Below, in pieces: positions 1-18,194 of a stretch of 64,000 bases of DNA; the stretch's first letter is position 1, and every line of letters begins with the position of its first letter. A program made the translations under genes and the position numbers. The notes beneath the pieces were generated by a model. That model made no database searches, was not told the origin of the DNA, and saw only the letters and a program-made list of their open reading frames with translations. Origin of the DNA: an uncultured Rhodospirillaceae bacterium (GTDB lineage: Bacteria > Pseudomonadota > Alphaproteobacteria > UBA8366); assembly GCA_913043025.1 (NCBI GenBank), contig CAJWLM010000006.1, positions 93,757-157,756 of the forward strand. Direction: 5' to 3'.

Positions 1-821
1 GAATAACTTGATGGGCCATGATGCGCAAACCCAAAGAAATCAATTCCCTCTCGTGCGCCCTCATACAACGCTAAATAACCCATATTTTCAAAATGAGTTG
101 GATGGTAAAAATCAACCACCGATGCCCCTGTTTGTAGACTTGTAAAAACGGAACTCCCGGAACTGCCGGCCCACCTGGAACCCAAGCCGGGGCTTATTGA
201 TTTTTTGTCAAACGGAAGAAACTTAAATGAGATGGTGTCGTCATCAATGAAATAATTTAACGCCAGGTGCCAAACACCTAACTCTGTTGTCGATGACGGA
301 TCGCTTCCGTCCCACAAACCAAATCGATCAGAGGGAGAATGAAGCTCGAGCAATCCCATAGATATAATATCTTTGCCAAGGATTAACTCATAATCTTCGG
401 CCTCATATTTTAGCCAAGCTGCAGTTAGGTCGGCGTAACGAATTTTCCGGTAGTGCTGATTAGGCCCGTTAAACCAACCCTGCACTGTATCCTGATCCGT
501 AGATAGAGAAAAATATCCCTTCATGCCGATTGAAAACTCTTCGTTTAGACTTGCCTCCGTTTCCCCTTCAAGTCTTGGGCTAAAGATAACGTAGTCATCG
601 CGGATTGAGCTATCGTCGATTTTGGTAACAAAACCAGAAAAAGAAGCACTAGCTGTACGCTTAAAATTGGTTGCAAGATCAACGAGCACCTTATTAACTG
701 GCGCGATAATGGCTTTCTTAATTTTCGCGTCGACTTCTGGGCCAGCCTCGGCCGAGCCAATAGCTATATGAAGGCATATGCCCAAAACCATTGCAAAAAC
801 AGCTTTAACATTCTTATTCAT
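1..821 (-). CDS. Outer-membrane beta-barrel/porin-like protein, 3' end cut by window edge
   Basis: This gene is absent from the ORF track because it has no stop inside the window; I translated it by hand from an ATG at 821. About 273 codons are open to the left edge. The product begins with a classic signal peptide (MNKNVKAVFAMVLGICL, ending near AEA). A short charged helical stretch follows, then alternating hydrophobic/polar strands rich in Gly, Ser, Asp, Phe and Trp, as in outer-membrane barrels of the alginate-export/DUF1302 kind. It starts 5 bp after the RND gene stops, so it is the third gene of the 4564-to-1 operon. I infer that it forms the outer-membrane part of a route with the RND transporter and the LolA-like protein. 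The family name is a resemblance only; the reading frame is firm. Confidence 0.8.
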   Translation of the reverse strand, partial: MNKNVKAVFAMVLGICLHIAIGSAEAGPEVDAKIKKAIIAPVNKVLVDLATNFKRTASASFSGFVTKIDDSSIRDDYVIFSPRLEGETEASLNEEFSIGMKGYFSLSTDQDTVQGWFNGPNQHYRKIRYADLTAAWLKYEAEDYELILGKDIISMGLLELHSPSDRFGLWDGSDPSSTTELGVWHLALNYFIDDDTISFKFLPFDKKSISPGLGSRWAGSSGSSVFTSLQTGASVVDFYHPTHFENMGYLALYEGAREGIDFFGFAHHGPSSY

Positions 822-826
822 GAAAG

Positions 827-3661
827 TTAATCTCGAGTGCTAAGCTGCTCGCCCATATTTGCAAGCCTACCGGCCAAAATAGCACTAATATTACGGTTCA
901 AAAGAGCATGGATGCGTGGGTATGACCGCATGGCTGATGCGACGCGCTCCTGCTCCAGCATAAGTACCTTGAGAGGTTCTTTTGAATTGCCCGGAACGCG
1001 CACAGTAGCTGTCCTGGCGACATTCCCGGCATAAGCAGCTTCACCAAATATCTCTGAAGTCCCCAGCGTAGCTAATAAAGTCTCTTTACCGTCTTTTACA
1101 CCAAGCACCACCTCTGCTTTACCCGAGAGAATTACGTACATGTTTCGATCCGTGGAGCCCTGAAGAAACACGTCCTCACCAGGTTCAAACTCTTTTGCAT
1201 AAGACAGTAATATTGTTTTACGCATTTGATAAGCAGTCATGCCTTTGAACACCTCGCTATCCGCCAAAACTTGTTGATTAAGCTTAAGCGATGCAATGTC
1301 CCAAAGACTGACAAGCCTAAATCGTTTCAACAGAATGGGCGTTATTAACAAGTCTGTAATCAATGCCATCACCATCGTTACAGCACATAAAAGCCCGAAT
1401 TGTATGATGATTGTAAAATCTGATAAAAGCAACGAAAGGAAAGCAAATGCCAAAGCCAACGACGTTGACACAACCGGTATTGCTTCCACGCGTACTGCTG
1501 CTCTTGCAGCGACCGTTTGATCTGGATTAATTTTCAATTGATCATTGAAGTTCGTTAACAAATGAATGGTATCATCAATAGCTATACCTATTGCAATAAC
1601 TGATACCAAAGTTGTGCCAGCGTTGAGCGGCACCCCAAACAGTCCCATAATGCCAAACATAGTGATAACCGGTATTAGGTTAGGCACCAAAGAAACAAAG
1701 CCAGCAGTGAAAGAGGTATACAGCAAACACATTAGCACGAAAATAATAGCCACCAGTAAAATAATAGACGTGCTTTGGCTCTTGATCATTGTTTCAGCGC
1801 CATTGTTGATCAAAATGTTTTTACTCGTTATGTGATAAACTGTTTTAGGACCAAGAATTTCAGCGATTTTCTCTCTAAGGTCATCTAGGTATTCTTTTAG
1901 TTCGTAAGAATTCGATATGTTATGTCGTACCATTAGATTTGCGCGCGTGGCATCTGCGTTGATAAATCGCTCAACGTCTGGTCTCGCAAAAAGTAAGAGA
2001 TATTGTTCTGCCAATGCCCGTGTCTTCGGCATTACATAAAATGCTTTATTCCCCTGGTTCATCTCCTGATTTACGAGTTTCAAGTAATCAGCAATTGATG
2101 TGACTTTGTCATATGCGCCTTGCTGCCTCATTACATTTTGTATTTTGTCAACTTTTTGTAACCATTTCGGATCTTTAAAATCCTTACCGGAGTCTGCATT
2201 AATAGACAGGTAAAACACTTGCATCCCTGCCAAATCATTGTGCAAGGTATCAGCATCAAGCCTTACCGAATTATCTGGTTTAAAAAATGACAAAGGGTCA
2301 TTGCTTGTTTGAACTTTAGTCGCGAAGCCAGCAAAGATAGTTGCCGCTAATAAAACTACGACAACCACTCTCCGCTCATAACGCCCTCCGAGGATATCCA
2401 GGATAGACAGCACTTTTCCGGCCAGCCCACCAACATTTTCACTATCACCCTGTAATTTAGACTTACGCGGCCCAAAAAATCTCAACAATAAAGGAAGCAT
2501 TAAAATGGTTACAATTAAATTTGCCACCATCGCGTAGCCAGCGGTAATCCCGAAATGCTGGACCATTATCAGATCACTCGAGATATTTGCCATGAAGCCA
2601 ACGGCCGTGGTGAAGGAAGTTATAAAAATCGGCAGACCCACATGAACTGCCATGAAACGGACAGCATTCATCCGATTTGGAGGGTCATCTTTAGACAAAC
2701 CCTCCAAATATGCAGTTAGCATGTGAGTATCTTCTGTTGAGCCAATTACGATTACCAAAGCTGGCAAGATTGCTGTCAAAAGGTTTAAAGGTATACCGGC
2801 AAAGCCCATAAAACCTGCGGTCCACAGAATACTCATTCCGGCAGTAATTAATGGCAAACCGGCAGCAACTGGAGTCCTCAGTTGGCTCAACAATATGACC
2901 ACCAGAAGCACCGCACCAATCGGAGTAAGTAACCCGATATCGCTGAACAAACCCCTTTCAATCGCTACATTGATGCGAGGCGCCCCCATTACAAAAACAT
3001 CTTCAAATTCACCACGTATATTTTTGAGGCGATTGTTTATTTCAGCTGCTGCTTTACGATTAAAAGATGGATCTCCCTCGATATTCTGTAATGTAACCAC
3101 CACAGTCGTCTTCATTGCGTCGTCGGAAATGTAAGTCCCGCGCATTATTGGACTATAAAGCGCATCTTCGCGGGCTTTTGCTATCTCTTGAGCCGTTTCA
3201 GGAGTAGCATCCATCAATGGGTTCATGTCTAACCCATCCGGCCCCGCGCGAATATTTAATGCAGTAAACAAGCTTTCTTGTTTTTCAACGTATTTCACAT
3301 CCTCTAAACCGAACGCAAACTCTTCAATGAAGCTCAGTTTTTTCTTTGAAAATAGATTCTTATCCTTAAAATAAACAAGAACGATGTTGTCTGAACCAAA
3401 CTCGGCGACTGTCTCCTGATACGGAGCGTAGCCTGGGTCATTTTTGCTGTAAAGAATATCAAAACTGCCATCGACAGTAAGATTCAGGGCTCCAAAAACT
3501 GATATGACAGTAATGATAGCAGCTAAAAGAAAACTGACGACCGGCCTGCGAGCCCCAAAAGTCATTGCTACTTCATACCACGGCTTCTTTTTTACGTTAT
3601 TCTCGCTCTCCTCTCCACCGCTGTCATGTTGCGATAAGGATTTTACATTGCCTTCTGCCAT
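827..3661 (-). CDS. MMPL/RND-superfamily transporter with C-terminal cyclic-nucleotide-binding domain
   Basis: A 944-residue inner-membrane protein. It has one TM segment near residues 38-60, a large periplasmic loop, a TM bundle at about 240-410, a second TM and loop, and a second bundle to about 795: the duplicated 6+6 RND/MMPL topology. Charged TM motifs typical of proton-coupled RND proteins are visible in each half (STEDTHML and AIDDTIHLL). Residues from about 815 to 935 form an extra cytoplasmic cNMP-binding domain with a phosphate-binding cassette (FGEAAYAGN..RTATV) that keeps the Gly-Glu and Arg. It sits between a LolA-like carrier gene (78 bp upstream) and a porin-like gene (5 bp downstream). 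The substrate is unknown; lipids or other hydrophobic molecules fit the partners. The fused sensor domain is the odd feature. Start ATG has GGAAAA upstream. Confidence 0.9.
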   Translation of the reverse strand: MAEGNVKSLSQHDSGGEESENNVKKKPWYEVAMTFGARRPVVSFLLAAIITVISVFGALNLTVDGSFDILYSKNDPGYAPYQETVAEFGSDNIVLVYFKDKNLFSKKKLSFIEEFAFGLEDVKYVEKQESLFTALNIRAGPDGLDMNPLMDATPETAQEIAKAREDALYSPIMRGTYISDDAMKTTVVVTLQNIEGDPSFNRKAAAEINNRLKNIRGEFEDVFVMGAPRINVAIERGLFSDIGLLTPIGAVLLVVILLSQLRTPVAAGLPLITAGMSILWTAGFMGFAGIPLNLLTAILPALVIVIGSTEDTHMLTAYLEGLSKDDPPNRMNAVRFMAVHVGLPIFITSFTTAVGFMANISSDLIMVQHFGITAGYAMVANLIVTILMLPLLLRFFGPRKSKLQGDSENVGGLAGKVLSILDILGGRYERRVVVVVLLAATIFAGFATKVQTSNDPLSFFKPDNSVRLDADTLHNDLAGMQVFYLSINADSGKDFKDPKWLQKVDKIQNVMRQQGAYDKVTSIADYLKLVNQEMNQGNKAFYVMPKTRALAEQYLLLFARPDVERFINADATRANLMVRHNISNSYELKEYLDDLREKIAEILGPKTVYHITSKNILINNGAETMIKSQSTSIILLVAIIFVLMCLLYTSFTAGFVSLVPNLIPVITMFGIMGLFGVPLNAGTTLVSVIAIGIAIDDTIHLLTNFNDQLKINPDQTVAARAAVRVEAIPVVSTSLALAFAFLSLLLSDFTIIIQFGLLCAVTMVMALITDLLITPILLKRFRLVSLWDIASLKLNQQVLADSEVFKGMTAYQMRKTILLSYAKEFEPGEDVFLQGSTDRNMYVILSGKAEVVLGVKDGKETLLATLGTSEIFGEAAYAGNVARTATVRVPGNSKEPLKVLMLEQERVASAMRSYPRIHALLNRNISAILAGRLANMGEQLSTRD

Positions 3662-3739
3662 GCTGTTTTCCTATATTTAAAGAGCCAGTAAACCGTGGTC
3701 TTGGGTTACAACTACGTTTCAGAAAGAAATTTCGCCCCA

Positions 3740-4564
3740 TTAACGCGCTAGTTTGCCGGAGGTAATGGTTTTTTTTCTGAAGTTCTTTGAGGGCGCATCA
3801 GCCTCCTTGAGGCTACGCTCGACTACCTCTGTGACTGTTTTATGTTTATTCTTCAGATGTTCCATAGTTGAGAGATTTGCTCGCCATGCTTTTCCTTCAA
3901 CATTCACCCACTTGTCGGTGGTTTGACGCTTTATAAGCTTGCCTCTGCGATTGAAATAATCCGTTCTTATAATGTTAAAATGCTTCTGCCCCACCCAAAG
4001 AAGCCTGAATTTGTATCCAGTATCTTTCTTTAGCTGTTTGTCGTTAGCCATAGCTTTTACAACAAATGCATTCTCACCATTCAGCTTTTCATCTGCTTGT
4101 CTGTCGTATGAAAATTTCTCCTTAGCTTCAGACACCAGATCTTCGTAAGTGTAATCTGTGCCCATGAAGTAATTGCGTTTACCTCCTTTCGCAATTCTTT
4201 TGAGTTTTTTCCCCTGCGCAGGCAAATACAACCATTGATCATCAGCCTTACTATCATTCTGCCAAGTCAGCATAGCCGTACCTTTTATGCCAGAAGGAGA
4301 TCTGAATATTGTAAGATACCGAGTTTGGGACTTATCTTTTTCGCGTGTGAACCTCCGCACATCACGCACTTCTTTTTTGCCTGACTTGTCGACCAAGGTC
4401 ATTTTTTGTATTTCAAACTCGAAGGGTTTGTCGTGACGGGCTTCAACCTCATCCATAATTTGCCGGCCAGAAAGGCTTTTCGTGTCGGCCATAGTCACCG
4501 AGGGAAGCAATGATAAGGCAAGGCTTACGACTATCATTAATGGCGTTTGGCGTACAAGAGTCAT
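3740..4564 (-). CDS. LolA-like outer-membrane lipoprotein-sorting family protein
   Basis: Periplasmic protein of the LolA-like family often annotated outer membrane lipoprotein-sorting protein (PF17131-type). Typical features seen are the LTWQNDSKADDQWLYLP stretch, a Lys/Arg-rich KKLKRIAKGGKR segment, and GTDYTYEDL. The track begins at 4588, but the ATG at 4564 is better: it is preceded by GGAG at normal distance and opens a clean signal peptide (MTLVRQTPLMIVVSLALSLL, cleavage near TMADT). This gives 274 residues. It is first in an operon with the RND transporter and the barrel protein. Members of this family are generally found beside MMPL/RND genes and are thought to carry hydrophobic cargo across the periplasm. 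It is not the canonical LolA, so no symbol is given. Confidence 0.85.
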   Translation of the reverse strand: MTLVRQTPLMIVVSLALSLLPSVTMADTKSLSGRQIMDEVEARHDKPFEFEIQKMTLVDKSGKKEVRDVRRFTREKDKSQTRYLTIFRSPSGIKGTAMLTWQNDSKADDQWLYLPAQGKKLKRIAKGGKRNYFMGTDYTYEDLVSEAKEKFSYDRQADEKLNGENAFVVKAMANDKQLKKDTGYKFRLLWVGQKHFNIIRTDYFNRRGKLIKRQTTDKWVNVEGKAWRANLSTMEHLKNKHKTVTEVVERSLKEADAPSKNFRKKTITSGKLAR

Positions 4565-4588
4565 AACTACATCTCCAGAACAATGCAT

Positions 4589-5168: not shown

Positions 5169-5627
5169 ATGAAAAATCCTTTAGAAAAAATCATAGACAG
5201 TTTTTTTTCAGGCGGCACAGTAAATCGTCGGCTACATTGGACGACTTTAGTTAGTGAAAAGGCCCTTTTGGCTTTTATTGGCGCACTTACAATGGTTGCT
5301 GTTGGATTGGAAGTAATCAATATATGGGAAAAAAAAGAAATCCAGTTAGCAGACCTTTTTCTATTTTTCATTTACGCAGAAATTATAGGTATGATTGGAG
5401 CATTTTATGCTAGCAGTCGTATACCGGTCACACTCCCCATCATTATTGCTATCACGGCACTGTGCAGGTTGTTGATTGCTCAGGGCAAAGAAATCGAATA
5501 TTCAACACTGTTAAGTGCTGCAGCTGCTATCCTTCTATTAGCAGGAGCCGCCTACGTCATGAGTTTGAAAGACAAGTTAAGTTTGGAAAAGGAAGATTTA
5601 CGAAAAAAACGCCCTAAAAAAAAATAA
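5169..5627 (+). CDS. PsiE-like (phosphate-starvation-inducible E family) membrane protein
   Basis: A 152-residue integral membrane protein with four predicted TM helices (about 27-50, 60-82, 87-103, 113-131) and a strongly basic C-terminal tail ending in KKRPKKK. The segment LADLFLFFIYAEIIGMIGAFY is characteristic of the PsiE family (PF06146). The function of the family is not established; E. coli psiE responds to phosphate starvation and cAMP-CRP. I see no obvious Pho box upstream. It is transcribed alone, convergent with the photolyase gene. A weak A/T-rich inverted repeat (CTAAAAAA..TTTTTTAG) spans its stop. Confidence 0.8.
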   Translation: MKNPLEKIIDSFFSGGTVNRRLHWTTLVSEKALLAFIGALTMVAVGLEVINIWEKKEIQLADLFLFFIYAEIIGMIGAFYASSRIPVTLPIIIAITALCRLLIAQGKEIEYSTLLSAAAAILLLAGAAYVMSLKDKLSLEKEDLRKKRPKKK

Positions 5628-5679: not shown

Positions 5680-7176
5680 TTACGTACAGGTGTGTTTTTC
5701 AATAAAGTTTTCAGCGGCACTGAAAATAATGTGTTTACGCTCTGCTTTCATTTTTTCTAACATTTTTACTTGAAATGAAAGCCGGGGGTTTGTTTGATAA
5801 AAAGCCTTATGTTTCATGATGAACCTCCAATAAAGCCCATCCACCACATCGCACCAATCTCCCCGTTTGTAATTGCTCATTTTAAGAATGTAGTTGGAGC
5901 TGCAAGTGTATGGTTTGGTTGACATTAATCCACCATCTGCGAAAGTTGCCATACCGAACACGTTGGGCACCATTACCCAATCAGAAGCATCTATGTACAT
6001 TTCCATAAACCATTTATAAATGGCCACTGGATCAATCTCACTGAGATTCATTAAATTAGCAATCACCATCAACCTTGGAATGTGGTGGCTGTAACCGTCT
6101 TTGAGTGCTGAGTTAATACAATCGTCCAAGGGCACAATGCCAGTAGAACCATCATACCAACTATCAGCCAGACTGCGTTTGTGTTCCCAAAAGTTGCTCT
6201 TATACTGTTCATCACCCTTCATCTGATATATTCCGCGTATGAATTCCCGCCAACCCAATACCTGCCTTATGAATCCCTCTGCAGAATTGATGGGCACACC
6301 GCCTTTTTTGAAAAGCCCAAAAACCTTTTCAATAATGATATCTGGTGTAATTAAACCAATATTGAGGAATGGACTTATGCAACTGTGAAATAGAAAGTTT
6401 TCATCGACCCGCATAGCATCCTCATAAACTCCGAAGTTAGAGAGTTTATTGAGCAAGAAAAATTCTAACTGCTCCTCTACACCTCGACGTTCAACAGGAA
6501 ACCAAATATTGTCCAAACTACCGAAGTGACCGGCAAATCGTTTGTGTATTAAATCTACGACCTTATCGTGGTACTTGGACAGAGGCGGCGCGCTTGGTTG
6601 GGGAACAGAAATGTTTGCAGGGATTTTTTTCCTATTTTCCTCATCGAAAGACCATTTGTTGCCTATTGGTTCGTTACGTTGGTTAACTAATATCCCGAAT
6701 TTTTTTCTTCCAGTTTTATAGAAATTTGCGAGCCGAAATGTTTTCTTTTTTCCCTGTACTGCAATGAATTCGTCGCGAGAAAACATAAACATAGGAGAAT
6801 TAAAAAACTCAATAGCCAATCCATTGCTTCTGACCCCCCTAAGAATGGATTCTTCAAAGTTCTTATCCTCGATTTCAAAGAAATTTAGACGATCAATTCT
6901 ATTCTTTTTGGCAAAACCAAGAAGGAAGTCAACGTAGTCGAGCCCATCGTTTCTGTCTTCCAGAGAAAAATATGAGACTTTAAACCCGCTTTGCTCCAGC
7001 TCATCCCTGTATTCTCTCATTGCGCAGAGAAATAAATAAATCTTCTTTTTGTGATGTTTTTGGTAAGTGCAGAGGCCAAGGTCTTCCGCCATAAATACGT
7101 GGTTACACCCATTTGCCCGCAAAAAACAGGGATCAAACAATTGATTCCCAAGTATGACAAAAGTTTTATTTTTCAT
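5680..7176 (-). CDS. Cryptochrome/photolyase family protein (bacterial DPRP/PhrB-like type)
   Basis: A 498-residue flavoprotein of the deoxyribodipyrimidine photolyase-related (FeS-BCP, PhrB-like) type. The N-terminal domain begins KTFVILGNQLFDP (PF04244-like). The C-terminal FAD domain contains HHIPRLMVIANLMNL, WVMVPNVFGMATFADGGL and a GLYWRF end motif. Characterised members repair (6-4) photoproducts or act as light sensors and bind a [4Fe-4S] cluster through four Cys. Against A. fabrum PhrB as I remember it, most ligand positions look replaced here: the usual DYCxxC region reads NYKRGDWC, and the Cys before the helix leading to the HH motif falls on a Pro. Only the last Cys (WCDVVDG) is clearly placed. 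Whether it binds a cluster is therefore doubtful. It is transcribed alone. Confidence 0.88.
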   Translation of the reverse strand: MKNKTFVILGNQLFDPCFLRANGCNHVFMAEDLGLCTYQKHHKKKIYLFLCAMREYRDELEQSGFKVSYFSLEDRNDGLDYVDFLLGFAKKNRIDRLNFFEIEDKNFEESILRGVRSNGLAIEFFNSPMFMFSRDEFIAVQGKKKTFRLANFYKTGRKKFGILVNQRNEPIGNKWSFDEENRKKIPANISVPQPSAPPLSKYHDKVVDLIHKRFAGHFGSLDNIWFPVERRGVEEQLEFFLLNKLSNFGVYEDAMRVDENFLFHSCISPFLNIGLITPDIIIEKVFGLFKKGGVPINSAEGFIRQVLGWREFIRGIYQMKGDEQYKSNFWEHKRSLADSWYDGSTGIVPLDDCINSALKDGYSHHIPRLMVIANLMNLSEIDPVAIYKWFMEMYIDASDWVMVPNVFGMATFADGGLMSTKPYTCSSNYILKMSNYKRGDWCDVVDGLYWRFIMKHKAFYQTNPRLSFQVKMLEKMKAERKHIIFSAAENFIEKHTCT

Positions 7177-7341: not shown

Positions 7342-8181
7342 TTATGTAATTGGAATGTTGTTTTTTTTATAAAAATCGAAATATGTTTCGGAGTCCCATT
7401 TGTCTTGAGGAGACTTGATTCTTATTAGATTTCCCAACGGAGCATTGTCTTCTGGGACAGCTACAACATTCATATCACCTGTTCCACCAAAAATATTATC
7501 GCTAACTTTGTTTCTATTGTTAACTCTGTACCAAAAAGCAAAATGCCAATAACAAACCCAGCCGTTTTCCATAAACCAGGTCAAATATTTTTCGGTTCCC
7601 TCTATTTCTTTTTTTGCTTCCAAGTAAACTACGGGTTGGTGCTGGGTTAAAAAATTATCTCCACCTTGAACAATATTCCACTCGTGACCTTCCACATCAA
7701 TCTTCACAAATGAACATTTATTTATAGGAAATTCGTTGAGGTGTATCGCTTGTGCAGGAGTTCCATCGTTGGCTATACCAACAGACCCGTAACGTCCTGC
7801 ACCCGAATGCTCATGGTCGTTTATTAGTACCCAACCTGTTTCGGAAGATACAGCTAATGAAAATACGTCAACATTCTTGATGTTGTTGAGGACTAAATTT
7901 GCGTTCAAGCATTGTGACATCAACTGTTGAGGCTCAAAGGCATATACCTTTCCTGTTGCTCCAACCCTTTTGGACAATGATATTACTGTCGTGCCGATGT
8001 TTGCGCCGATATCTAGAACAGTGTCTCCCGGTTCAACAAACTGCGACATAATTATATTTTCGCCCTCAGACCATTCACCATACAAAGGCAAACTCTTACC
8101 GACCACGGCGTCGTTTTCAGGAAAAATCATTTTCCCATACAACGTATCTGCCACTTGTAATTTTTCTAATTTTATATTCAT
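7342..8181 (-). CDS. FkbM-family SAM-dependent methyltransferase
   Basis: A 279-residue soluble class I methyltransferase. The SAM-binding motif I is clear (VLDIGANIGTT), followed by the FEPQ motif (YAFEPQQLM) and a KIDVEGHEW segment, all hallmarks of the FkbM family. FkbM proteins O-methylate sugars, polyketides or glycans; no acceptor can be deduced. There are no glycan-synthesis genes beside it, and the flanking genes (photolyase and ZIP-like protein) are unrelated. It appears to be a single-gene unit. Confidence 0.85.
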   Translation of the reverse strand: MNIKLEKLQVADTLYGKMIFPENDAVVGKSLPLYGEWSEGENIIMSQFVEPGDTVLDIGANIGTTVISLSKRVGATGKVYAFEPQQLMSQCLNANLVLNNIKNVDVFSLAVSSETGWVLINDHEHSGAGRYGSVGIANDGTPAQAIHLNEFPINKCSFVKIDVEGHEWNIVQGGDNFLTQHQPVVYLEAKKEIEGTEKYLTWFMENGWVCYWHFAFWYRVNNRNKVSDNIFGGTGDMNVVAVPEDNAPLGNLIRIKSPQDKWDSETYFDFYKKNNIPIT

Positions 8182-8400: not shown

Positions 8401-9777
8401 ATGGATTTTCAATTTCTGGGTTGGGCCGTTTTCCTGGGTGGTCTCTCTGCAGCATCTCTTCCATTGGGCTCATTATTGGGGTTGGTCTGGACACCGAGTA
8501 ACCGCATAGTTGGGATGATGACTGCCTTTGGTGGCGGGGCGTTGCTCGCTGCACTAGGGATAGAATTAGTTGCACCAACTGCAATGGATCTCGTCAGTGC
8601 CTCAACCGCTAAGGCAAAAGATGAGGCCGCACACCATCTCGTTAATCTATTATTAGGTGCAGCCGGCGGCGGTGTTGTATTCGTAGTTCTTGACGAAATC
8701 ATAAATTCAAAAGGTGGTTTTTTAAGAAAAACATCTTCCACCATTGAATATTTCACCAACCGTAAAGCCGCACGTCGAAGAGAGATTTTAGAACACCTTT
8801 CAATAAGCGAGCTAATTCGGCACCTCCCGCTCGAAGCTGTCGAAGAGATGGTAACAAGGGTGAGTGAGAGGTCCTTCGAGGCTGATGAAATAATTTTTCA
8901 AGAAGGGGATAATGGGGATGAGGTTTTTTTCCTAGAGACGGGTAGCATAACCGTTTTACGTGATTCTCAAGAGATTGCCCTCTTGACGAGTGGCGACGTA
9001 TTGGGAGAGATAGCTCTTGTAACTGGAGCACCAAGAACCGCGGCAGCAATAGCAGCGGAAACCGCAACAGCATTTTCTCTCCCCAAAAGGGATTTTGACA
9101 CTTGGCGATCAAGATATCAAAAATTTGAGGAAGCGGCGACCTTACTATCCGCAAGCCGCCTCAAGGAGCTTCAAGCCCGTGATAGAACTAATAGCAATAC
9201 AAATGCATGGGTCGAGAGTGTAATGAATTCATCAGTGGAAACTTCTATTGTACCCACAAAATCCCAACTGAAAGAAGTTAGTGAGGAGCATGATGGGGCA
9301 CCGCTAGCTATCTGGCTCGGCATAATGCTAGACGGCATCCCCGAGAGCTTTGTAATAGGCTCTGCACTGTTAGTTGCGATCTCAACCTTGATTGCACAAA
9401 CTGGACCTGAAGCAGTCACATTAGGATCTGTAATTCCCTACACGCTCATTGCGGGGTTATTTCTGGCTAATTTTCCAGAAGCAATGAGTAGTTCTATTGG
9501 AATGAAAAAGCAGGGTTGGGGAAGTACCAGAATCCTACTTATGTGGTTGAGCCTTACGGTTATGACAAGCATCGGTGCCGGCGCAGGGTTCTGGTTCGGC
9601 GGTATGTTAGGTCACGGTGTTCTTGTATTAGTAGAAGGGTTTGCCGCAGGTGCAATGTTAACCATGATCGCCGCTGCTATGATTCCGGAGGCCATCCACC
9701 TAGGCGGAAGAAATTCGACTGGACTAGCTACACTGGTGGGATTTTTATCAGCCGTGGCGTTCAAACTTCTTGAGTAG
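8401..9777 (+). CDS. ZIP-like metal transporter with internal cyclic-nucleotide-binding domain
   Basis: A 458-residue membrane protein of unusual build. Residues 1-105 hold three TM helices like the start of a ZIP/ZupT protein. Residues about 135-255 form a CRP-type cNMP-binding domain (IIFQEGDNGDEVFFLETG, then GDVLGEIALVTGAPRTA with conserved Gly-Glu and Arg). Residues 300-458 supply the remaining TM helices with ZIP-like motifs (LDGIPESFVIG, LANFPEAMSSSIG, AAAMIPEAIH). The PE pairs are kept, but the His of the usual HNxPEG motifs are replaced by Asp and Ala, so metal specificity may differ or be lost. The nucleotide domain is inserted where ZIP proteins have their long cytoplasmic TM3-TM4 loop. 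It is transcribed alone and converges on hemG. Confidence 0.85.
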   Translation: MDFQFLGWAVFLGGLSAASLPLGSLLGLVWTPSNRIVGMMTAFGGGALLAALGIELVAPTAMDLVSASTAKAKDEAAHHLVNLLLGAAGGGVVFVVLDEIINSKGGFLRKTSSTIEYFTNRKAARRREILEHLSISELIRHLPLEAVEEMVTRVSERSFEADEIIFQEGDNGDEVFFLETGSITVLRDSQEIALLTSGDVLGEIALVTGAPRTAAAIAAETATAFSLPKRDFDTWRSRYQKFEEAATLLSASRLKELQARDRTNSNTNAWVESVMNSSVETSIVPTKSQLKEVSEEHDGAPLAIWLGIMLDGIPESFVIGSALLVAISTLIAQTGPEAVTLGSVIPYTLIAGLFLANFPEAMSSSIGMKKQGWGSTRILLMWLSLTVMTSIGAGAGFWFGGMLGHGVLVLVEGFAAGAMLTMIAAAMIPEAIHLGGRNSTGLATLVGFLSAVAFKLLE

Positions 9778-10666: not shown

Positions 10667-11599
10667 ATGCGTAGAGTTCTGTTAAGTTGCCTGGTATTGT
10701 TCACGCTGTGTGCAGCGGGCACACCCAGCTTCTCTGGCAATGGATCTTTCGGTCCAATCATTACCTCAGACAATTTAGAAAAACTACTTGATACTGATAA
10801 AGCTCTGATTTTAGATATACGTGGCAACAACGTTAGAGACGGATACATTCCTGGTGCAATCAGCGTCAGTTACAGTGCTTTTAGAGGCCCGAAAAGTAAC
10901 CCTGGGCAGTTAGTAACTAATGGCCATTTAACATCCTTGTTTCAAAAACTTGGTATTCATCGAGACAAACCGGTCGTAGTAGTGTTTCAAGGGAGAGATG
11001 CGACAGATTTCGGTGCTGCTGCTCGCGTATACTGGACTCTAAAGTCAGCGGGCATAACTAAAATAGCTATTTTGAATGGTGGAATGAATGATTGGATTGG
11101 TAGTGGGAGACGGGCGACAAGCGCTACTCCGTCTAAACCTAAAAAAAGCGAAATAGTAGTAACCCTCAGTGACGATTGGTTGGCAAGCCGTGACGATGTC
11201 CTAGCCGTTGTAAACGGAACTAGTAATGGAACGTTGATTGATGCAAGGCCAGAACCATTTTATGAAGGTAAAAAACAACATTCTGCCGCAGCTCGGCCGG
11301 GAACGCTGCCACGGTCTGGTATTTTCCCGCACACGCAATGGTTTCAAACCGGAGCCACGCTGCACAAGGCATCAAAAGCTGATAAAATTTTACAAGCGGC
11401 AAATTTCAAATCGGCTAAAAAAATTGTATCTTTTTGTAACACTGGTCATTGGGCTGCGACCAATTGGTTTGCTTTAAGCGAGTTAAGTGGATTGAAAGGC
11501 GTCAAACTTTATCCAGAATCAATGGTTGGTTGGTCTAATGCAGAACTGCCAATGGACAACACGCCCAGCCTTTGGCAGAATTTATTGGACAAATTCTAG
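10667..11599 (+). CDS. Secreted tandem-rhodanese sulfurtransferase
   Basis: A 310-residue protein with a signal peptide (MRRVLLSCLVLFTLCAAG, cleavage near SFSG) and two rhodanese domains. The first (about 30-150) lacks the active Cys: the loop reads VVVFQGRDATDFG. The second (about 170-300) keeps the catalytic loop FCNTGHWAATNWF, with Cys as the persulfide carrier. This inactive/active pairing is normal for thiosulfate or 3-mercaptopyruvate sulfurtransferases. The signal peptide places it in the periplasm. The ATG has GGAG 7 bases upstream. It heads an operon with a YeeE/YedE transporter and a small secreted protein, so it probably handles thiosulfate or sulfane sulfur together with them. Confidence 0.88.
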   Translation: MRRVLLSCLVLFTLCAAGTPSFSGNGSFGPIITSDNLEKLLDTDKALILDIRGNNVRDGYIPGAISVSYSAFRGPKSNPGQLVTNGHLTSLFQKLGIHRDKPVVVVFQGRDATDFGAAARVYWTLKSAGITKIAILNGGMNDWIGSGRRATSATPSKPKKSEIVVTLSDDWLASRDDVLAVVNGTSNGTLIDARPEPFYEGKKQHSAAARPGTLPRSGIFPHTQWFQTGATLHKASKADKILQAANFKSAKKIVSFCNTGHWAATNWFALSELSGLKGVKLYPESMVGWSNAELPMDNTPSLWQNLLDKF

Positions 11600-11637
11600 C
11601 GCCAGTCTACGGGCCGGTAGCTGCGGACTTTACTACT

Positions 11638-12777
11638 ATGGCCTTAAACCCATCATTTTTGTCGCAAGCACCTAGAATTATTGGTTTCACAGTAGTGCCA
11701 GCTGTTCTCGTAACAATTTCTGCTTTGTTATCATTATTTGTTGGTGTGAGATTTGGCCTGATTTTTATCCTTGGCCTTGCGCTAGGTATGACGTTTGAGG
11801 CTTTCAGGTTTGGCTTTGCAGGGCCGTGGAGAGCCACGATAATGCGTCGTGAGCCTGCAGGTTTTGTAGCGCAGTTAATTTCGATTGGTTGCGTTTCCAT
11901 CATTGCTTTTCCGTTAATTACGATAAATAGCTCTGAATTGGTAGGGGCACATGCTCCCATTGGCATAGCGATGGTCGGAGGAGCATTTTTTTTCGGTTTA
12001 AGCATGCAATTAGTACTTGGCTGCGGTTCAGGGACATTAATAAACGCAGGAAGCGGCAATACAGTTGCATTGATAGTTCTGCCATTTTTTGCAATAGGAA
12101 GCTTCGCAGGGGCGTACCACCTAGATTGGTGGATTAACTTCGGAACTACACAAGCGCTGACCCTTCCTAATCTACTCGGACCTACGTTAGGACTCGCTGT
12201 AAATCTGCTTGGCCTTTTGGCAGTCGCAATAGCTGCTCTGGTTTGGGCCCTTCCTGAGAATAGGAGGATTCCTCGCAAACTTTGGATTGCGGCACTAACA
12301 ATAGCTGTTTTGGCTGTTCTTCACTTAAGTATCTCTGGCCAACCATGGGGAGTAGTTTATGGATTGGGTTTGTGGGCCGCAAAAACTACTCAGGCTTTAA
12401 ATATTGACTTAACGAATTCAATATTTTGGTCCTCTGAAGCCCAACAAATACGACTGTCGCAAACAATATTTTCAGATGTAACGTCACTTACCAATATTGG
12501 GTTAATTCTCGGGGCGTTCGCGATCGCTAATTGGCGGGGCGATCTAAGTCGTGAACGGGCTTATCTCCCATTAGTTGGGTGGTGTACTGCAATTTTTGCG
12601 GGTTTGATGATGGGTTACTCTTCTAGGTTAGCATTTGGGTGCAACGTTGGTGCATTTTTCAGTGGAATTTCTACAGGCAGTCTACATGGCTGGGTATGGC
12701 TCATTTCTGCCTTCGTTGGATCTATTTTTGGTATTCGCCTTCGTCCACTCCTTGGTCTCGAGCAGAGAGTAGCATGA
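11638..12777 (+). CDS. YeeE/YedE (TsuA-like) sulfur-compound transporter
   Basis: A very hydrophobic protein of about 379 residues with 9-10 TM segments and the two Cys-containing repeats of the YeeE/YedE family (PF04143): LGCGSGTLINAGSGN and AFGCNVGAFFSG. In characterised TsuA these Cys relay thiosulfate through the membrane. The track starts at a TTG at 11572, inside the rhodanese gene; the first ATG in frame is 11638, 38 bp after the rhodanese stop. Neither start has a strong ribosome-binding site, so the N-terminus is uncertain by 22 residues. Its stop overlaps the ATG of the next small gene. The operon context supports import of sulfur compounds linked to the periplasmic rhodanese. Confidence 0.85.
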   Translation: MALNPSFLSQAPRIIGFTVVPAVLVTISALLSLFVGVRFGLIFILGLALGMTFEAFRFGFAGPWRATIMRREPAGFVAQLISIGCVSIIAFPLITINSSELVGAHAPIGIAMVGGAFFFGLSMQLVLGCGSGTLINAGSGNTVALIVLPFFAIGSFAGAYHLDWWINFGTTQALTLPNLLGPTLGLAVNLLGLLAVAIAALVWALPENRRIPRKLWIAALTIAVLAVLHLSISGQPWGVVYGLGLWAAKTTQALNIDLTNSIFWSSEAQQIRLSQTIFSDVTSLTNIGLILGAFAIANWRGDLSRERAYLPLVGWCTAIFAGLMMGYSSRLAFGCNVGAFFSGISTGSLHGWVWLISAFVGSIFGIRLRPLLGLEQRVA

Positions 12778-12971
12778 AAACGAGGAAGTCTATCGCCCTG
12801 ACCGCAATCGGATTTTTATTATTAATAACGGCTATGGACCTAGCAGTTAGTCAAGCTCCAAATCCGTATCTTCAACCCTCTATTATATCGTTGGGTAGCG
12901 GTAAAGCACCGTCTGGTCAATTATGCACATCGGCAGTGCGTGAAGGTTCACCGAGGTCACAATCCAATTGA
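12774..12971 (+). CDS. Small secreted protein of the rhodanese/YeeE operon
   Basis: A 65-residue protein starting at an ATG that overlaps the transporter stop by four bases (ATGA), so translation is probably coupled; the longer track ORF from 12639 is the same frame read too far upstream. It has a basic N-terminus and hydrophobic core like a signal peptide (MKTRKSIALTAIGFLLLIT), then about 40 residues with one Cys in GSGKAPSGQLCTS. I do not recognise the family. The single Cys and operon position make a periplasmic sulfur-carrying or accessory role conceivable, but that is inference. Confidence 0.65.
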   Translation: MKTRKSIALTAIGFLLLITAMDLAVSQAPNPYLQPSIISLGSGKAPSGQLCTSAVREGSPRSQSN

Positions 12972-13514
12972 GCAAATTATGAGTTCTTTAAAATCTCGGG
13001 AATATGAAAATATTTTTAAGATTGTGGAAGCTATAGTACGCCTTCATCTACGAATTATGTGCTATCCGATGTTAGCTCGGAATTGTTTTACGGAATTCAA
13101 TGACATGCGAAATTCGTATGGATATGTAAAATTACATTAAAATAGATATTTTTTTCAAAATATATAGGCTTTAGCATTAATAAATATGAACAATTTATTT
13201 GTAATTTTTTTACATTTTCATTTATTTCAAAGTAAATATTAATTTTTTATTTATAAAAAATAATTTTTATGAATTAATTCAATTTAATTATTTGTTTGTA
13301 TTGATTTAAACTTAGAAATGATCGCTGTTACATGTATAACTCGCACACGTAATTGGCCAACCTTCGTATCAAGAACCTCACTGATGTATCTTTCAGACCT
13401 ACTCAGCCAATTCCAATCATTTTTTGCTCATTTTAACGGCATTTATTTCCATGTCAGAACGGTATGTATCTTTTACACCTTCGGCAATTTATTAACAAAG
13501 AAGCGAAGTGAAAT
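12972..13514. other. Intergenic region with an extreme AT-rich core
   Basis: 543 bp between the sulfur operon and the hydrolase. About 13135-13315 is almost pure A+T. The 66-aa track ORFs here (12940-13140, 13318-13518) have no recognisable features and I do not call them. No promoter consensus or RNA stands out. Confidence 0.45.
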
Positions 13515-14813
13515 ATGAAGGATAATTTTGAACAGGCACTGATTATCGCCGTCGAAGAGTCAATGGAGCGTGCCGATCAGTTTTTCCTAGAAATAGAAGA
13601 TAAAACAAAGGATGGACCGGGTGTCACTCGTGTTGCATGGGGCGAAGGAGAACAAATAGGTCACGACATGTGCGAGGCATGGGCAAAGGAACTCGGGATG
13701 GAAATCTCAGGGGACAGTGCCGGCAACCTATATATGACATTTCCAGGCGAAGATCGCGAAGCGCCACCTTTCATAGTAGGCTCCCATATGGACACCGTGC
13801 CCTGCGGTGGCAATTATGACGGTGCCGCCGGAGTTATTTCAGGGCTTGCCGCCATTCAAGCATTTCAAGCAGCCGGCATCACTCCCGCCCAGGATACCAT
13901 TGTGATGGCAATCCGCGCCGAAGAAGCCGGCAGCTGGTTTTCAGGCCTACACGGTGGCCATCTTGGCAGTCGGGCAGCGCTGGGCCGATTTATGGAAGAT
14001 GAATTGAATACCGCCCACCACAACTATTTCGATAAATCACTCTATGAGGTGATTAAGACGGCTGGTTTTGATCCCGACGCTATTGCTAATAATCCGCCCC
14101 ATCTGAACCCGCAAAAAATTAAAGGTTATTGCGAGCTTCATATTGAACAAGGACCTATATTAATAGCTGAGAACAAACCGGTCGGTGTGGTCAGCGGCAT
14201 TCGCGGGAATCGGCGCTTTCGAAATTGCAAAGCATTAGGCGAATACAATCATGGTGGCGCCACTCCACAATCTTTCAGAAAGGACGCAGCACTGGGCGCT
14301 GCTGAATTTCTTTATAAATTTGAGCAGGTGGGTCTACAAACACTGGCCGACGGTGGCGATCTAGTTTTTAATCCCGGAATCATCCATACGGATCCCGATG
14401 TTAACGGGCTTTCCAAGGTTTGTGGTGAAGTCAATTTCACTTTGGACATGCGGAGCGAAAGTTCGGAAATATTAGACACGATGAGAAAAACGGCAGAGGG
14501 TATTGCAGCAGAAATTTCGGAACAAAGGGGCGTTAATGTCGATCTCGGGGCATTTTCGGTATCCGTGCCCGCCGCTCTCCAAAATGATGAGAAGCATCGC
14601 ATGCTAAAGGGCTGTGCCGCGATGGGCCTCGAGGCAACCAGCCTTGCCAGCGGCGGCGGTCACGATGCAGCTGAGTTTCATCACGAGGGCGTACCCTCTT
14701 CAATGATCTTTATTCGTAATGAAAATGGCAGCCATAATCCGGACGAAGCAATGGAGATGGAAGATTTTTGCGAGGGTACAAAAATCCTCGCTTGGATGAT
14801 GGCGACCGCTTAA
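13515..14813 (+). CDS. Zn-dependent M20-family hydrolase (N-carbamoyl-amino-acid hydrolase/allantoate amidohydrolase-like)
   Basis: A 432-residue amidase of the hydantoinase/carbamoylase family (M20). The metal-site motifs are in order: GSHMDTVP (His), NYDGAAG (bridging Asp), RAEEAGSW (Glu-Glu), ELHIEQGP (His), and GSHNPDEAMEM near the C-terminus. The SGGGHDAAEF segment is also typical. Family members hydrolyse N-carbamoyl amino acids, ureidoglycolate or allantoate; the exact substrate is not readable. It stands alone. Its base composition is clearly higher in G+C than its flanks (one 60-base line counted by hand was 38/60), which suggests different ancestry. There is no full-strength Shine-Dalgarno; a GAAG-containing stretch precedes the ATG. 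Confidence 0.88.
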   Translation: MKDNFEQALIIAVEESMERADQFFLEIEDKTKDGPGVTRVAWGEGEQIGHDMCEAWAKELGMEISGDSAGNLYMTFPGEDREAPPFIVGSHMDTVPCGGNYDGAAGVISGLAAIQAFQAAGITPAQDTIVMAIRAEEAGSWFSGLHGGHLGSRAALGRFMEDELNTAHHNYFDKSLYEVIKTAGFDPDAIANNPPHLNPQKIKGYCELHIEQGPILIAENKPVGVVSGIRGNRRFRNCKALGEYNHGGATPQSFRKDAALGAAEFLYKFEQVGLQTLADGGDLVFNPGIIHTDPDVNGLSKVCGEVNFTLDMRSESSEILDTMRKTAEGIAAEISEQRGVNVDLGAFSVSVPAALQNDEKHRMLKGCAAMGLEATSLASGGGHDAAEFHHEGVPSSMIFIRNENGSHNPDEAMEMEDFCEGTKILAWMMATA

Positions 14814-15180
14814 CAACAATTTGAAAGCAACTAGAACCTGCGTCACAAACCATTGACGTAACTACTTTCGGGGACAGTTCTCTCCTACCGTTCCAAAAGT
14901 GTAACGCTACATTCACTCAAGCGGAAATCTAGCGATCATTGATAAAAATCTAAAATTTGTGGAACTACTCCCACTCAGCGGTTCTAGTGGAAATATAACA
15001 ATTATTTCATAGCGTTATTTTTGCTATGTACCAATTACGTACGAAGTTGTTTTTAGAAAGAAAATCAATGACTTTCTAACTGTCTAATTTTGAACGATTC
15101 CTACCGACTCCATTTTCAAGCTACGTACTGCTCAATGTTGCCCAACTACTGCCTATTAAACCGCATGCAAGAGGCGATAT
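14814..15180. other. Intergenic region with hairpin and guaA-end-like repeat
   Basis: No gene is visible. It contains an 11-bp copy of the guaA 3' end (14967-14977, listed separately). It also has a perfect 8-bp inverted repeat, TTAGAAAG/CTTTCTAA, at 15053-15079 with an 11-base loop and no T-run. Composition is AT-rich again, unlike the hydrolase gene before it. Confidence 0.45.
14967..14977. repeat. Left copy of 11-bp direct repeat matching the guaA 3' end
   Basis: ACTCCCACTCA, identical to 16579-16589, where on the minus strand it encodes the last residues and stop region of GuaA (EWE-stop). Here the minus strand reads GAGTGGGAGTAG, again Glu-Trp-Glu-stop, without the rest of guaA. It is a candidate distal attachment-site copy. 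Confidence 0.5.
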
Positions 15181-15345
15181 TTAGGCCAACGAAGCAAATT
15201 TATCTGAAAAACAGGCTGCCTCGTCATTAGGAAACAAGTTAGGTGCAAGCTGCGTATCCTCGTCACCGCGTTCGGCGACAAGCCGCGCAACTGTCCCAGT
15301 TTCGAGATTTTCCCGCGTTATGCGCACCAATTTTTCACCTGTCAT
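15181..15345 (-). CDS. 54-aa hypothetical protein, possibly the truncated N-terminus of a larger gene
   Basis: An ATG at 15345 overlaps the mscS stop (TGATG), so it is probably translationally coupled. It encodes MTGEKLVRITRENLETG and continues to a stop at 15181, 54 residues in all. The first two thirds use G+C-rich codons like mscS. From about codon 34 (near 15243) codon use becomes AT-rich like the flanking DNA. I read this as the start of a foreign gene cut at the left edge of the G+C-rich segment and fused by chance to local sequence. No family recognised; too short for the ORF track. Confidence 0.45.
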   Translation of the reverse strand: MTGEKLVRITRENLETGTVARLVAERGDEDTQLAPNLFPNDEAACFSDKFASLA

Positions 15346-16563
15346 CAGCCGCCGTTTTCCCCTGCGCTGCCGGACCTGTCGCCCAAATGACGGACAACCC
15401 GCTGCGGGAAGGGAATGTCGATGCCATGGTCATCGAGAACGCCTTTCAGCCGTCGATTCAGGTCCCAGTAAAGATCAAAGAAATCATCGTAGCTTGCATA
15501 GGCGCGAAGCCGGACATTGATGGCGCTGTCGCCATAGCTGACAACCAGAAAGCGTGGTGCCGGATCGGCAAGCACGCGGGAATCGGCAGCCAGACTCATC
15601 AAGGCAGTCTCGGCCGTATCGAGATCGCTGTCATAGCCGATCCCGATATCCAGATCCATGCGCCGTGTGCCATAGCGCGCATGGTTAATGATGTTTGACG
15701 ACCAGATCGACGAGTTCGGAATGCTGATAAACACATTGTCAAACGTATCAATCGTCGTTGTGAACAGACCGATTTCGCGCACCGACCCCGATACACCTGC
15801 AGCCTCCACCCAGTCGCCGATCCGGAACGGCCGCAGGAACAGCAACATCAGGCCCGCGGCAACATTCGACAAGGTGCCTTGCAGCGCCAGGCCGACGGCA
15901 AGGCCGGCCGCACCCAGAACGGCAATAATCGATGTTGTCTCGACCCCGAAATTGCCAAGCGTGACGATGATGGTCAGGGTCAGGCCGGCATAGCGGACCA
16001 ATGCCGCCATAATCGGCACCAATGTCTTGTCCAGCCGGTTCAGCCGTGACAGCCATTCGCCTGTAAGCCGTGACGCCCTGCGCGACAGCCAGATGCCAAG
16101 GGCCAGCGTAAAGATAGCCGCCAGAAAATTCATACCGTAAGCCGTTGCCAGTGCCAGAAATTGCTCGATGGCAATGCTGGACACATTCAAATATGTGGCG
16201 ATATCAGTTGTCAGTTTGCCGTCCATCGTTTCCACACTCACCATTCCTGCCGGTTGCACTGGCCGCGTGGCAGGCTGTCTTGCGCTTTCGTGGCATTGTG
16301 CCACAAATGCGGGTTCGATGGGTGAAATAAAGCGTTTACAGCGTTGAATTTGTCCGCGGGTTGCACGATATAGTGCCGCGCCATGAATCTGACCGTGTCA
16401 CATTCCTGCGAAATCTTGTGCTGGAGCGTCGGCGACGCACCTCTGGCGCGTGGTGACATGGTGGCCGCTATCGGTAATTTCGATGGTGTTCATCTTGGTC
16501 ACCAGAAGGTGATAGACACAGCGCGCAAGGCAGCAGCCGAACGTGGCCAGCCGATTGGTGTGG
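15243..16563. other. G+C-rich segment of apparently foreign origin carrying mscS and gene fragments
   Basis: By hand counts of single 60-base lines, this stretch runs about 50-65% G+C, against about 40% in adjacent guaA. It holds one complete gene (mscS) and what look like cut genes at both ends: a 54-aa ORF on the left and ribF on the right. It lies between two 11-bp copies of the guaA 3' end. I see no integrase or transposase. It may be a decayed island, illegitimate recombination or an assembly chimera. Boundaries are approximate. Confidence 0.55.
15345..16226 (-). CDS. mscS: MscS-family small-conductance mechanosensitive channel
   Basis: An inner-membrane channel with three TM helices followed by the MscS pore and beta domain. 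The pore-lining TM3 is Gly/Ala-rich (VLGAAGLAVGLALQGTLSNVAAGL), then LLFLRPFRIGDWVEA, REIGLFTTTI and IPNSSIWSSNIIN, all canonical. It releases solutes on hypo-osmotic shock. The track ORF runs to a GTG at 16304 inside a GTGGCA-TTG-TGCCAC palindrome; ATGs at 16244 and 16226 are more likely, and 16226 has GGA just upstream. The chosen start gives 293 residues, a usual MscS length. It is divergent from a truncated ribF. Its G+C-rich composition differs sharply from the surrounding DNA. Confidence 0.88.
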   Translation of the reverse strand: MDGKLTTDIATYLNVSSIAIEQFLALATAYGMNFLAAIFTLALGIWLSRRASRLTGEWLSRLNRLDKTLVPIMAALVRYAGLTLTIIVTLGNFGVETTSIIAVLGAAGLAVGLALQGTLSNVAAGLMLLFLRPFRIGDWVEAAGVSGSVREIGLFTTTIDTFDNVFISIPNSSIWSSNIINHARYGTRRMDLDIGIGYDSDLDTAETALMSLAADSRVLADPAPRFLVVSYGDSAINVRLRAYASYDDFFDLYWDLNRRLKGVLDDHGIDIPFPQRVVRHLGDRSGSAGENGG

Positions 16564-16571
16564 AGAAATAA
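16383..16571 (+). pseudogene. ribF: Truncated ribF (riboflavin kinase/FAD synthetase), 5' fragment only
   Basis: About 60 codons match the N-terminus of RibF: MVAAIGNFDGVHLGHQKVI, including the HxGH nucleotidyltransferase motif, then KAAAERGQPIGV. A complete RibF has about 310 residues. The reading frame stops two codons after GQPIGV, right where base composition falls and just 6 bp before the guaA stop. The whole kinase domain and most of the adenylyltransferase domain are missing, so it cannot be functional. A working ribF must lie elsewhere in the genome. Confidence 0.8.
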
Positions 16572-16576
16572 ATGAG

Positions 16577-18130
16577 TCACTCCCACTCAATAGTCCCTGG
16601 AGGCTTGGATGTAGAATCGTAAGTTACTCGATTGATACCCTTCACCTCATTTATGATTCTAGTCGAAACGTGAGACAGAAAATCATGTTCAAAGGGATAA
16701 AAATCGGCCGTCATCCCGTCAGTCGATGTAACAGCTCGAAGCGCACAAGCGTACTCGTAGCTGCGAGCATCACCCATCACACCAACTGTTTTGACGGGAA
16801 GCAGGACGGCGAAAGCCTGCCAAATTTTATCATAAAGCCCAGCCTTACGGATTTCATCAAGGTATATTGCATCAGCTTGCCGTAACGTATCTAACTTTTC
16901 TTTGGTTATAGATTGACCCGGGATACGTATAGCGAGGCCTGGCCCCGGAAATGGGTGCCTTGCAATAGCAGCTTCCGGCATACCTAGCTCTCGCCCTAGA
17001 GCACGAACTTCGTCCTTAAAGAGATCGCGTAAGGGCTCCACTAATTTCATATTCATGCGATCGGGTAGCCCACCAACATTGTGGTGAGACTTAATTGTTA
17101 CGCTTGGTCCACCATCAAATGAGACAGATTCAATAACGTCGGGATATAGAGTGCCTTGGGCAAGAAATGCAGCTCCTCCAAGCTTTTTTGCCTCCTCTTC
17201 GAATACATCAATAAAAAGGCCGCCAATGATTTTCCGTTTAATTTCCGGGTCAATCACATTTGCTAATTGGCCCAAGAAAAGATCGCTAGCATCACGATGC
17301 ACCAGTGAAATACTGAAGTGATCGCGAAACATCGAAACTACATCGTTAGCTTCATTCAAACGCATGAACCCGTGGTCAACAAGAATGCAAGTGAGTTGTT
17401 CCCCAATCGCCTCATTTAGAAGCACGGCTACAACCGACGAGTCGACGCCACCAGAAAGACCGCAAATAACTCGCCCATCGCCGACCTGATTTTTAATTCG
17501 TGTCGTTACCTCTGACCTGAAGGATGCCATTGACCAATCACCGCTACATCCTGCAATGTTGTGCGTGAAATTTTTCAAAAGCGCGGCTCCACCAGGCGTA
17601 TGAACAACCTCTGGATGGAATTGCACTCCGTAGTACTTGCGATTATCATCCGCAACAATCGCATTGGGAGCCCCTTCGCTAATGCCAACAGCTCTGAATC
17701 CGGGGGGCAAATGCGTAACCCGATCACCATGGCTCATCCAAACCTGGTTAGAGGTACCCACATCCCATGTGTCATCGAGTAAAGTGCATTCTTCTGAAAC
17801 TTCAACCATAGCTTTTCCGAATTCGCGATGGTCATGAGGCTCGACAACACCACCCAATTGATTACACAAAATTTGCTGACCATAACAAATGCCAAAGATT
17901 GGCAAACCACTCTCAAATACAGCCTCAGGAACCCTAGGTGCCTTATCTTGAATTACACTAGAGGGACCTCCTGAGAGAATTACGCCATTGGGCTTATAAG
18001 ACGCGAGATAGATGCGATCGACACGATTGTAAGGATGAATTTCGCAATAAACACCACTTTCACGAACTCGCCGAGCAATGAGCTGTGTAACTTGACTACC
18101 GAAATCAATTATTAAGATATTATCTGTCAT
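16577..18130 (-). CDS. guaA: GMP synthase (glutamine-hydrolysing)
   Basis: 517 residues, normal for GuaA, which aminates XMP to GMP in the cytoplasm. The N-terminal class I glutamine amidotransferase domain has the nucleophile Cys in FGICYGQQ and the His-Glu pair in FHPEVVHT. The ATP pyrophosphatase domain has the [10 protein letters not shown]-loop, and the C-terminal dimerisation domain ends in TIEWE. It is third in guaB-rsmB-guaA, a common alphaproteobacterial order, 64 bp after rsmB. Its 3' end is a known hot spot for genomic-island integration in other bacteria, which matters because atypical DNA starts immediately downstream here. Confidence 0.97.
16579..16589. repeat. Right copy of 11-bp direct repeat (guaA 3' end)
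   Basis: ACTCCCACTCA overlaps the final codons of guaA. The identical sequence is at 14967-14977, 1.6 kb away. Together they bracket the G+C-rich mscS/ribF-fragment segment and could be att-like copies. Confidence 0.5.
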
Positions 18131-18194
18131 AATTACCGTTAATAGCTGACAAAAGTTAGACTCTACAAGTTTGGAACTTAAAAGCGATTACTTG

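Follow-up and report, generated by a model that had tools for sequence, protein, structure and literature searches.

A LolA-like/RND transporter pair with a C-terminal cyclic-nucleotide-binding domain and two alternative partners

Bacteria from several phyla encode an RND transporter that ends in a cyclic-nucleotide-binding domain (CNBD) and is paired with a LolA-like periplasmic carrier. We describe this RND-CNBD system from the window, a stretch of 64,000 nucleotides of an uncultured Rhodospirillaceae bacterium, and conclude that it is real, conserved and probably functional. Its conserved core is the pair of LolA-like and RND-CNBD genes, with two alternative outer-membrane routes, and not a three-gene set, because in about half of the relatives the barrel gene seen in the window is missing and pqiABC lies upstream instead. 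We give a probability of about 0.5 to the reading that the system is a proton-driven, cyclic-nucleotide-gated transporter of lipids from the inner to the outer membrane, whose gating, ligand, cargo and direction are those we infer below.

The analysis of open reading frames places three genes on the minus strand at the left edge of the window, all in the same direction and in the order LolA-like, MMPL/RND and barrel (Table 1). The initial annotation had proposed these genes as one operon with gaps of 78 bp (LolA-like to RND) and 5 bp (RND to barrel), and all three reading frames are present with this spacing. The LolA-like reading frame spans positions 3740 to 4588, and a start at 4564 agrees with the orthologue in a locus from the same genus (L047). 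The window edge truncates the barrel gene, whose complete form (463 aa, L007:8187-9578) extends 571 bases beyond window base 1. The three-gene set is kept in a genome of the same genus (G002), with identities of 96, 96 and 90%. Scans of the operon for promoters and terminators gave no more than was found in shuffled sequences.

Table 1. Positions in the window of the operon genes and of the main parts of the RND-CNBD protein.
Feature	Positions	Strand	Basis
LolA-like periplasmic carrier, 274 aa, Sec signal peptide	3740..4564	-	PF17131, E 1.8e-41
MMPL/RND inner-membrane transporter with C-terminal CNBD, 944 aa	827..3661	-	PF03176, E 5e-35; PF00027, E 1.1e-13
CNBD with B and C helices, residues 823-944	830..1195	-	PF00027 at 823-912
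Phosphate-binding cassette FGEAAYAGNVARTA, residues 872-885	1007..1048	-	Conservation over 76 aligned relatives
Linker from TM helix 12 to CNBD, residues 786-822, motif YQxRKxILLS	1196..1306	-	Top-residue frequency 0.57
Outer-membrane beta-barrel, first 273 of 463 aa	1..821	-	Signal peptide, C-terminal Phe, model of orthologue

The RND protein matches PF03176 in two stretches (121.5 bits, cut-off 20.5), and its AlphaFold2 model, made with 58 aligned sequences, has a mean pLDDT of 89. The model shows two helical bundles, and the protein has the two MMPL repeats and two periplasmic porter loops of the MMPL/RND family; the CNBD and two closing helices are well modelled at the C-terminus. A Foldseek search with the RND body retrieved MmpL4, MmpL5, NPC1 and HpnN, the best solved fold being MmpL4 (TM 0.81 by target). 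All these top matches are carriers of lipids or other hydrophobic molecules. Residues E310, D311 and H313 of TM4, and D696 and H700 of TM10, are invariant over the 58 sequences; in this family, the acidic residues of TM4 and TM10 act as a proton relay. The subfamily with the best match is HAE3 (TIGR00921), at 212 bits, which is below its NCBIfam cut-off of 351.9. Scores against the NCBIfam cut-offs led us to reject an identity with HpnN (88.7 vs. 751.85 and 33.3 vs. 1100) or with the sterol transporter BstA (17.2 vs. 1400). A canonical tripartite efflux system of the HAE1 type was also rejected, because the operon contains neither a membrane-fusion protein nor a TolC-type outer-membrane factor and the partner is an AlgE-type barrel.

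The LolA-like protein belongs to PF17131 (142 bits, cut-off 30), with a signal peptide that can be read from its sequence, and also matches DUF1329 weakly. It is the only match to the LolA-like family in the window genome. The barrel protein has no Pfam match, but a signal peptide and a C-terminal Phe can be read from its sequence. The AlphaFold2 model of its orthologue in Pacificispira (pLDDT 87) shows an outer-membrane beta-barrel whose nearest fold is that of AlgE (E 1e-12, TM 0.56), with an identity of 8% that makes this a resemblance of fold only.

A CRP-type domain with a GE..RTA cassette had been proposed at the C-terminus of the RND protein, and this proposal was staked, among other things, on a match to PF00027. 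The domain does match, with 51.3 bits in the window and 58-69 bits in the relatives (gathering cut-off 27.5). Across 76 aligned relatives, the key positions of the cassette are G873 (75/75), E874 (74/75), R883 (76/76) and A885 (76/76), and the residue that follows the Arg is Thr or Ser in 73 of the 76. The mean frequency of the top residue is 0.51 in the CNBD, 0.57 in both the pump and the TM12 linker, and 0.70 in the last (C) helix, as expected if the conserved linker and last helix couple the CNBD to the pump, which they may do. By sequence, the best matches among solved structures are cGMP-dependent kinases, followed by regulatory subunits of cAMP kinases and chains of the CRP family. Because of these matches and of the Thr or Ser after the Arg, cAMP cannot be claimed as the specific ligand. 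Both ends of RND proteins are cytoplasmic, which would place the CNBD on the side of the membrane where cyclic nucleotides occur.

Other CNBD proteins are encoded in the window genome and its relatives. Another membrane protein, encoded 4 kb from the operon (8401-9777, plus strand), contains an internal CNBD (PF00027, E 2e-18); its membrane part has no Pfam match and gives the impression, and only that, of a ZIP-type metal transporter. It is kept in the same-genus locus L047 and was not found in the flanks of other RND-CNBD loci. Between this gene and the operon are genes for a PsiE-family protein (5169-5627, plus strand), a photolyase-related DPRP protein (5680-7176, minus strand) and, by impression only, an FkbM-like methyltransferase (7342-8181, minus strand). 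Elsewhere in the window genome, a stand-alone CNBD protein of 154 aa is encoded directly after a gene for an ABC-transporter-like ATPase (L010:1399-1863, minus strand). Many relatives have CNBDs in reading frames of about 1030-1100 aa, and the flanks of two RND-CNBD loci encode a Ser/Thr protein kinase-like protein (L103:16534-17898, minus strand) and a polytopic membrane protein (L061:4066-5457, plus strand), each with a CNBD.

The search of genome_contigs with a profile of seven orthologues resulted in the identification of 115 relatives, of which 80 loci were kept; both search patterns are in the transporter part and not in the CNBD, and the ranking favours full-length matches. These 80 fused loci come from alpha-, gamma- (including Methylococcaceae) and zetaproteobacteria, Nitrospinota, Desulfobacterota, Myxococcota, Verrucomicrobiota/Kiritimatiellota and one Omnitrophota, and their hosts include methanotrophs, Mariprofundus and Nitrospina. 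We rejected a chance or assembly fusion of the CNBD because it is kept in 80 loci. A less biased test is given by 398 genomes of the phylum, 19 of which (including the window genome) have a match at E <= 1e-100. One of these is a fragment; in the remaining 18 the match extends over the CNBD, and in no case does it end with the RND core. In a quick tree that combined the RND cores of 77 fused and 16 unfused proteins, the latter a small set from the same class only, the fused proteins form a clade apart with a support of 100. This is consistent with, and does not prove, a single origin of the fusion.

The window RND protein groups in the tree with the copies of Methylobacter and other Methylococcaceae. 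The same bacteria provide the best matches outside the genus for each of the three window genes, while the full-length RND-CNBD gene is absent from the other searched genera of the organism's own family. Together, these sequence comparisons point to a probable transfer of the operon as one unit, and the same two observations led us to reject a restriction of the system to close relatives.

We compared the gene neighbourhoods of 82 loci (the 80 fused loci, the window and a relative from the same genus). In 76 of them, the LolA-like gene directly precedes the RND gene. A barrel gene is downstream in 32, and PqiABC is upstream in 41 (all three genes are visible in 35, and the end of the contig cuts the set in six); in none of the 82 are both immediately adjacent to the pair. 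Hence, the first part of the three-gene order in the initial annotation is conserved, whereas about half of the loci have PqiABC upstream in place of the barrel. In these loci, pqiA, pqiB and pqiC lie directly upstream of the pair, in the same direction and nearly without gaps, as confirmed with Pfam in L073 and L094. The commonest flanking families of the 80 loci are PF03886 (PqiC-type lipoprotein) and MlaD (MCE). The tree needs a single change of partner, so the exchange counts as one event and not 73. PqiA was not found in the window genome, which is therefore of the pure barrel type. Cultured relatives include Pacificispira spongiicola KN72 and Novispirillum itersonii ATCC 12639 of the barrel type and Mariprofundus sp. 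EBB-1 of the Pqi type. A single locus, L068 of Novispirillum itersonii (10724-18779), has both partners in view, with the barrel adjoining the pair and the Pqi genes a few kb downstream. Neither partner is present in the well-covered flanks of L063 and L070, nor at L057 and L077, which lack the LolA-like gene as well. Directly downstream of RND-CNBD, L063 (11015-13195) and L070 (10696-12867), both from Hyphomicrobiales, have similar genes, which probably encode the two TIR-domain proteins found among the flanking families.

Enzymes that could supply a nucleotide ligand are present in the hosts. Class III cyclases were found in 30 out of 30 sampled host genomes and in 111 out of 150 genomes of the phylum, the latter counted at a stricter E-value that all 30 host genomes also reach. 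A class III cyclase is within the flanks of 10 of the 80 loci, from nine independent lineages, when about 1.6 are expected (P about 5e-5, for loci that are not fully independent of one another). The expectation is based on 205 cyclases in about 116 Mb (the 30 host genomes) and 0.92 Mb of flanks, and doubling the background density gives P about 0.006. The linked cyclases differ in position, with 6 of the 10 on the opposite strand. The cyclase is a same-strand gene upstream of the LolA-like gene in L059, L066 and L109, and its open frame starts 48 bases after the RND gene in L062. In the window genome, four such cyclases are encoded, none of them on the contig of the operon.

The combination of an RND transporter, a LolA-superfamily protein and a barrel is of an already known kind. 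AmeABCD of Castellaniella defragrans includes an RND of the HAE3 type, a LolA-superfamily DUF1329 protein and a DUF1302 barrel (PMC6394551), and so shares with the window operon an inner-membrane RND, a periplasmic protein of this superfamily and an outer-membrane barrel. It differs in the families of the barrel and of the LolA-like protein, in its fourth gene, AmeC (COG4447), and in having no reported link to Pqi; moreover, AmeD, at 787 aa, is too short to include a CNBD, unlike the window RND (PMC6394551). We did not assign the operon to the AmeABCD type, because its barrel matches no Pfam family and there is no fourth gene close behind on that strand. TOL_3187/TOL_3188 of Thalassolituus oleivorans, linked to growth on a long-chain alkane (PMC6304351), also have MMPL and LolA-like domains followed by a gene for a porin-like barrel, but there LolA is fused to the MMPL protein and no CNBD is reported. 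HpnN and MmpL3/4/5, the top structural matches, resemble the window protein in RND fold and hydrophobic cargo and lack both a CNBD and a pair of LolA-like and barrel genes. Escherichia coli has the same order of PqiA, PqiB (MCE) and PqiC as found upstream of LolA-RND-CNBD, but its pqi operon consists of three genes only and no RND, LolA or CNBD partner is described (PMC10897342, PMC5561183); the text of the MCE survey mentions neither RND nor LolA (PMC5561183). Fusions of MFS transporters to CNBDs, which also join a secondary transporter and a CNBD but belong to another superfamily, are mentioned in a review of transporter regulation, whose passages on cyclic nucleotides or RND pumps contain no RND-CNBD fusion (PMC10710835). 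What we did not find described in the open-access literature, an absence that is not proof, is the CNBD on an RND/MMPL protein and the joint operon of Pqi, LolA and RND.

In the mechanism that we favour, the RND protein would use protons, by way of the conserved Asp and His residues of TM4 and TM10, to draw its cargo out of the inner membrane, and would pass it to the periplasmic LolA-like carrier, as suggested by the pairing of the genes. The carrier would then deliver the cargo to the AlgE-like barrel in the window organism; in the second large branch, where the exchange of genes is observed, it would work with the PqiABC bridge instead. The cargo is probably a lipid or a similar hydrophobic molecule, which we conclude mainly from the partnership with Pqi and the structural neighbours. 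cAMP or cGMP made by class III cyclases would bind the CNBD and switch the pump, on or off, through the TM12 linker. More tentatively, and with odds we put below even, LolA-RND-CNBD might be an engine under second-messenger control and driven by protons, which loads lipid routes across the envelope: it energises PqiABC in one branch and feeds a barrel that replaces the bridge in the other.

The same genes could instead provide efflux of, or tolerance to, hydrophobic compounds such as hydrocarbons, terpenes and solvents. Such a system, similar to AmeABCD, would export toxins and not the cell's own lipids, with the CNBD tying export to the catabolic state. We consider this unlikely. The hosts, among them methanotrophs, Mariprofundus and Nitrospina, are not known to share a hydrocarbon diet, no catabolic genes recur beside the loci, and half of the family shares its operon with PqiABC, which handles envelope lipids. 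Yet the LolA-like protein has its weak match to DUF1329, AmeABCD confers monoterpene tolerance and Nile Red efflux (PMC6394551), and TOL_3187/3188 rise on a C28 alkane (PMC6304351), all of which would fit efflux.

The remaining alternatives concern the role of the CNBD and the direction of transport. The domain could be a structural or oligomerisation element, or bind another ligand, in a constitutive transporter that senses no cyclic nucleotide. This is unlikely: the Arg and Ala of the cassette are invariant and the Glu nearly so over several phyla, even though the domain overall is more variable than the pump (0.51 vs. 0.57), and class III cyclases are in all sampled hosts and adjacent in some. 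Against this, some proteins have CRP-fold domains that have lost nucleotide binding, and the C-helix, the most conserved part of the tail, would also suit an oligomer contact. Uptake, in which lipids or fatty acids would cross from the outer membrane to the inner one by way of the barrel or the Pqi bridge, appears quite improbable to us. Barrel and MCE systems can serve import. The structural neighbours MmpL3, MmpL4/5 and HpnN are generally known to export from the inner membrane (see also PMC6394551), which argues against uptake, even if TOL_3187/3188 have been discussed with alkane transport (PMC6304351).

The lipid transporter that we propose bears on two unsettled questions, how lipids are delivered to the outer membrane and what powers bridges of the PqiABC type. 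The study of PqiC left the energy source of PqiA open: if PqiA is a transporter, it would have to work passively, with the help of an ATPase yet to be identified or by means of the proton motive force (PMC10897342). This makes the RND partner of particular interest, and a proton-driven RND protein whose gene shares an operon with pqiABC offers a tangible candidate for the energy source of Pqi. The invariant predicted nucleotide site suggests that a second messenger may switch the supply of lipids to the outer membrane without a change in transcription. If LolA-RND-CNBD is indeed such an engine, cyclic nucleotides would directly set the flow of lipids from the inner to the outer membrane at the protein level.
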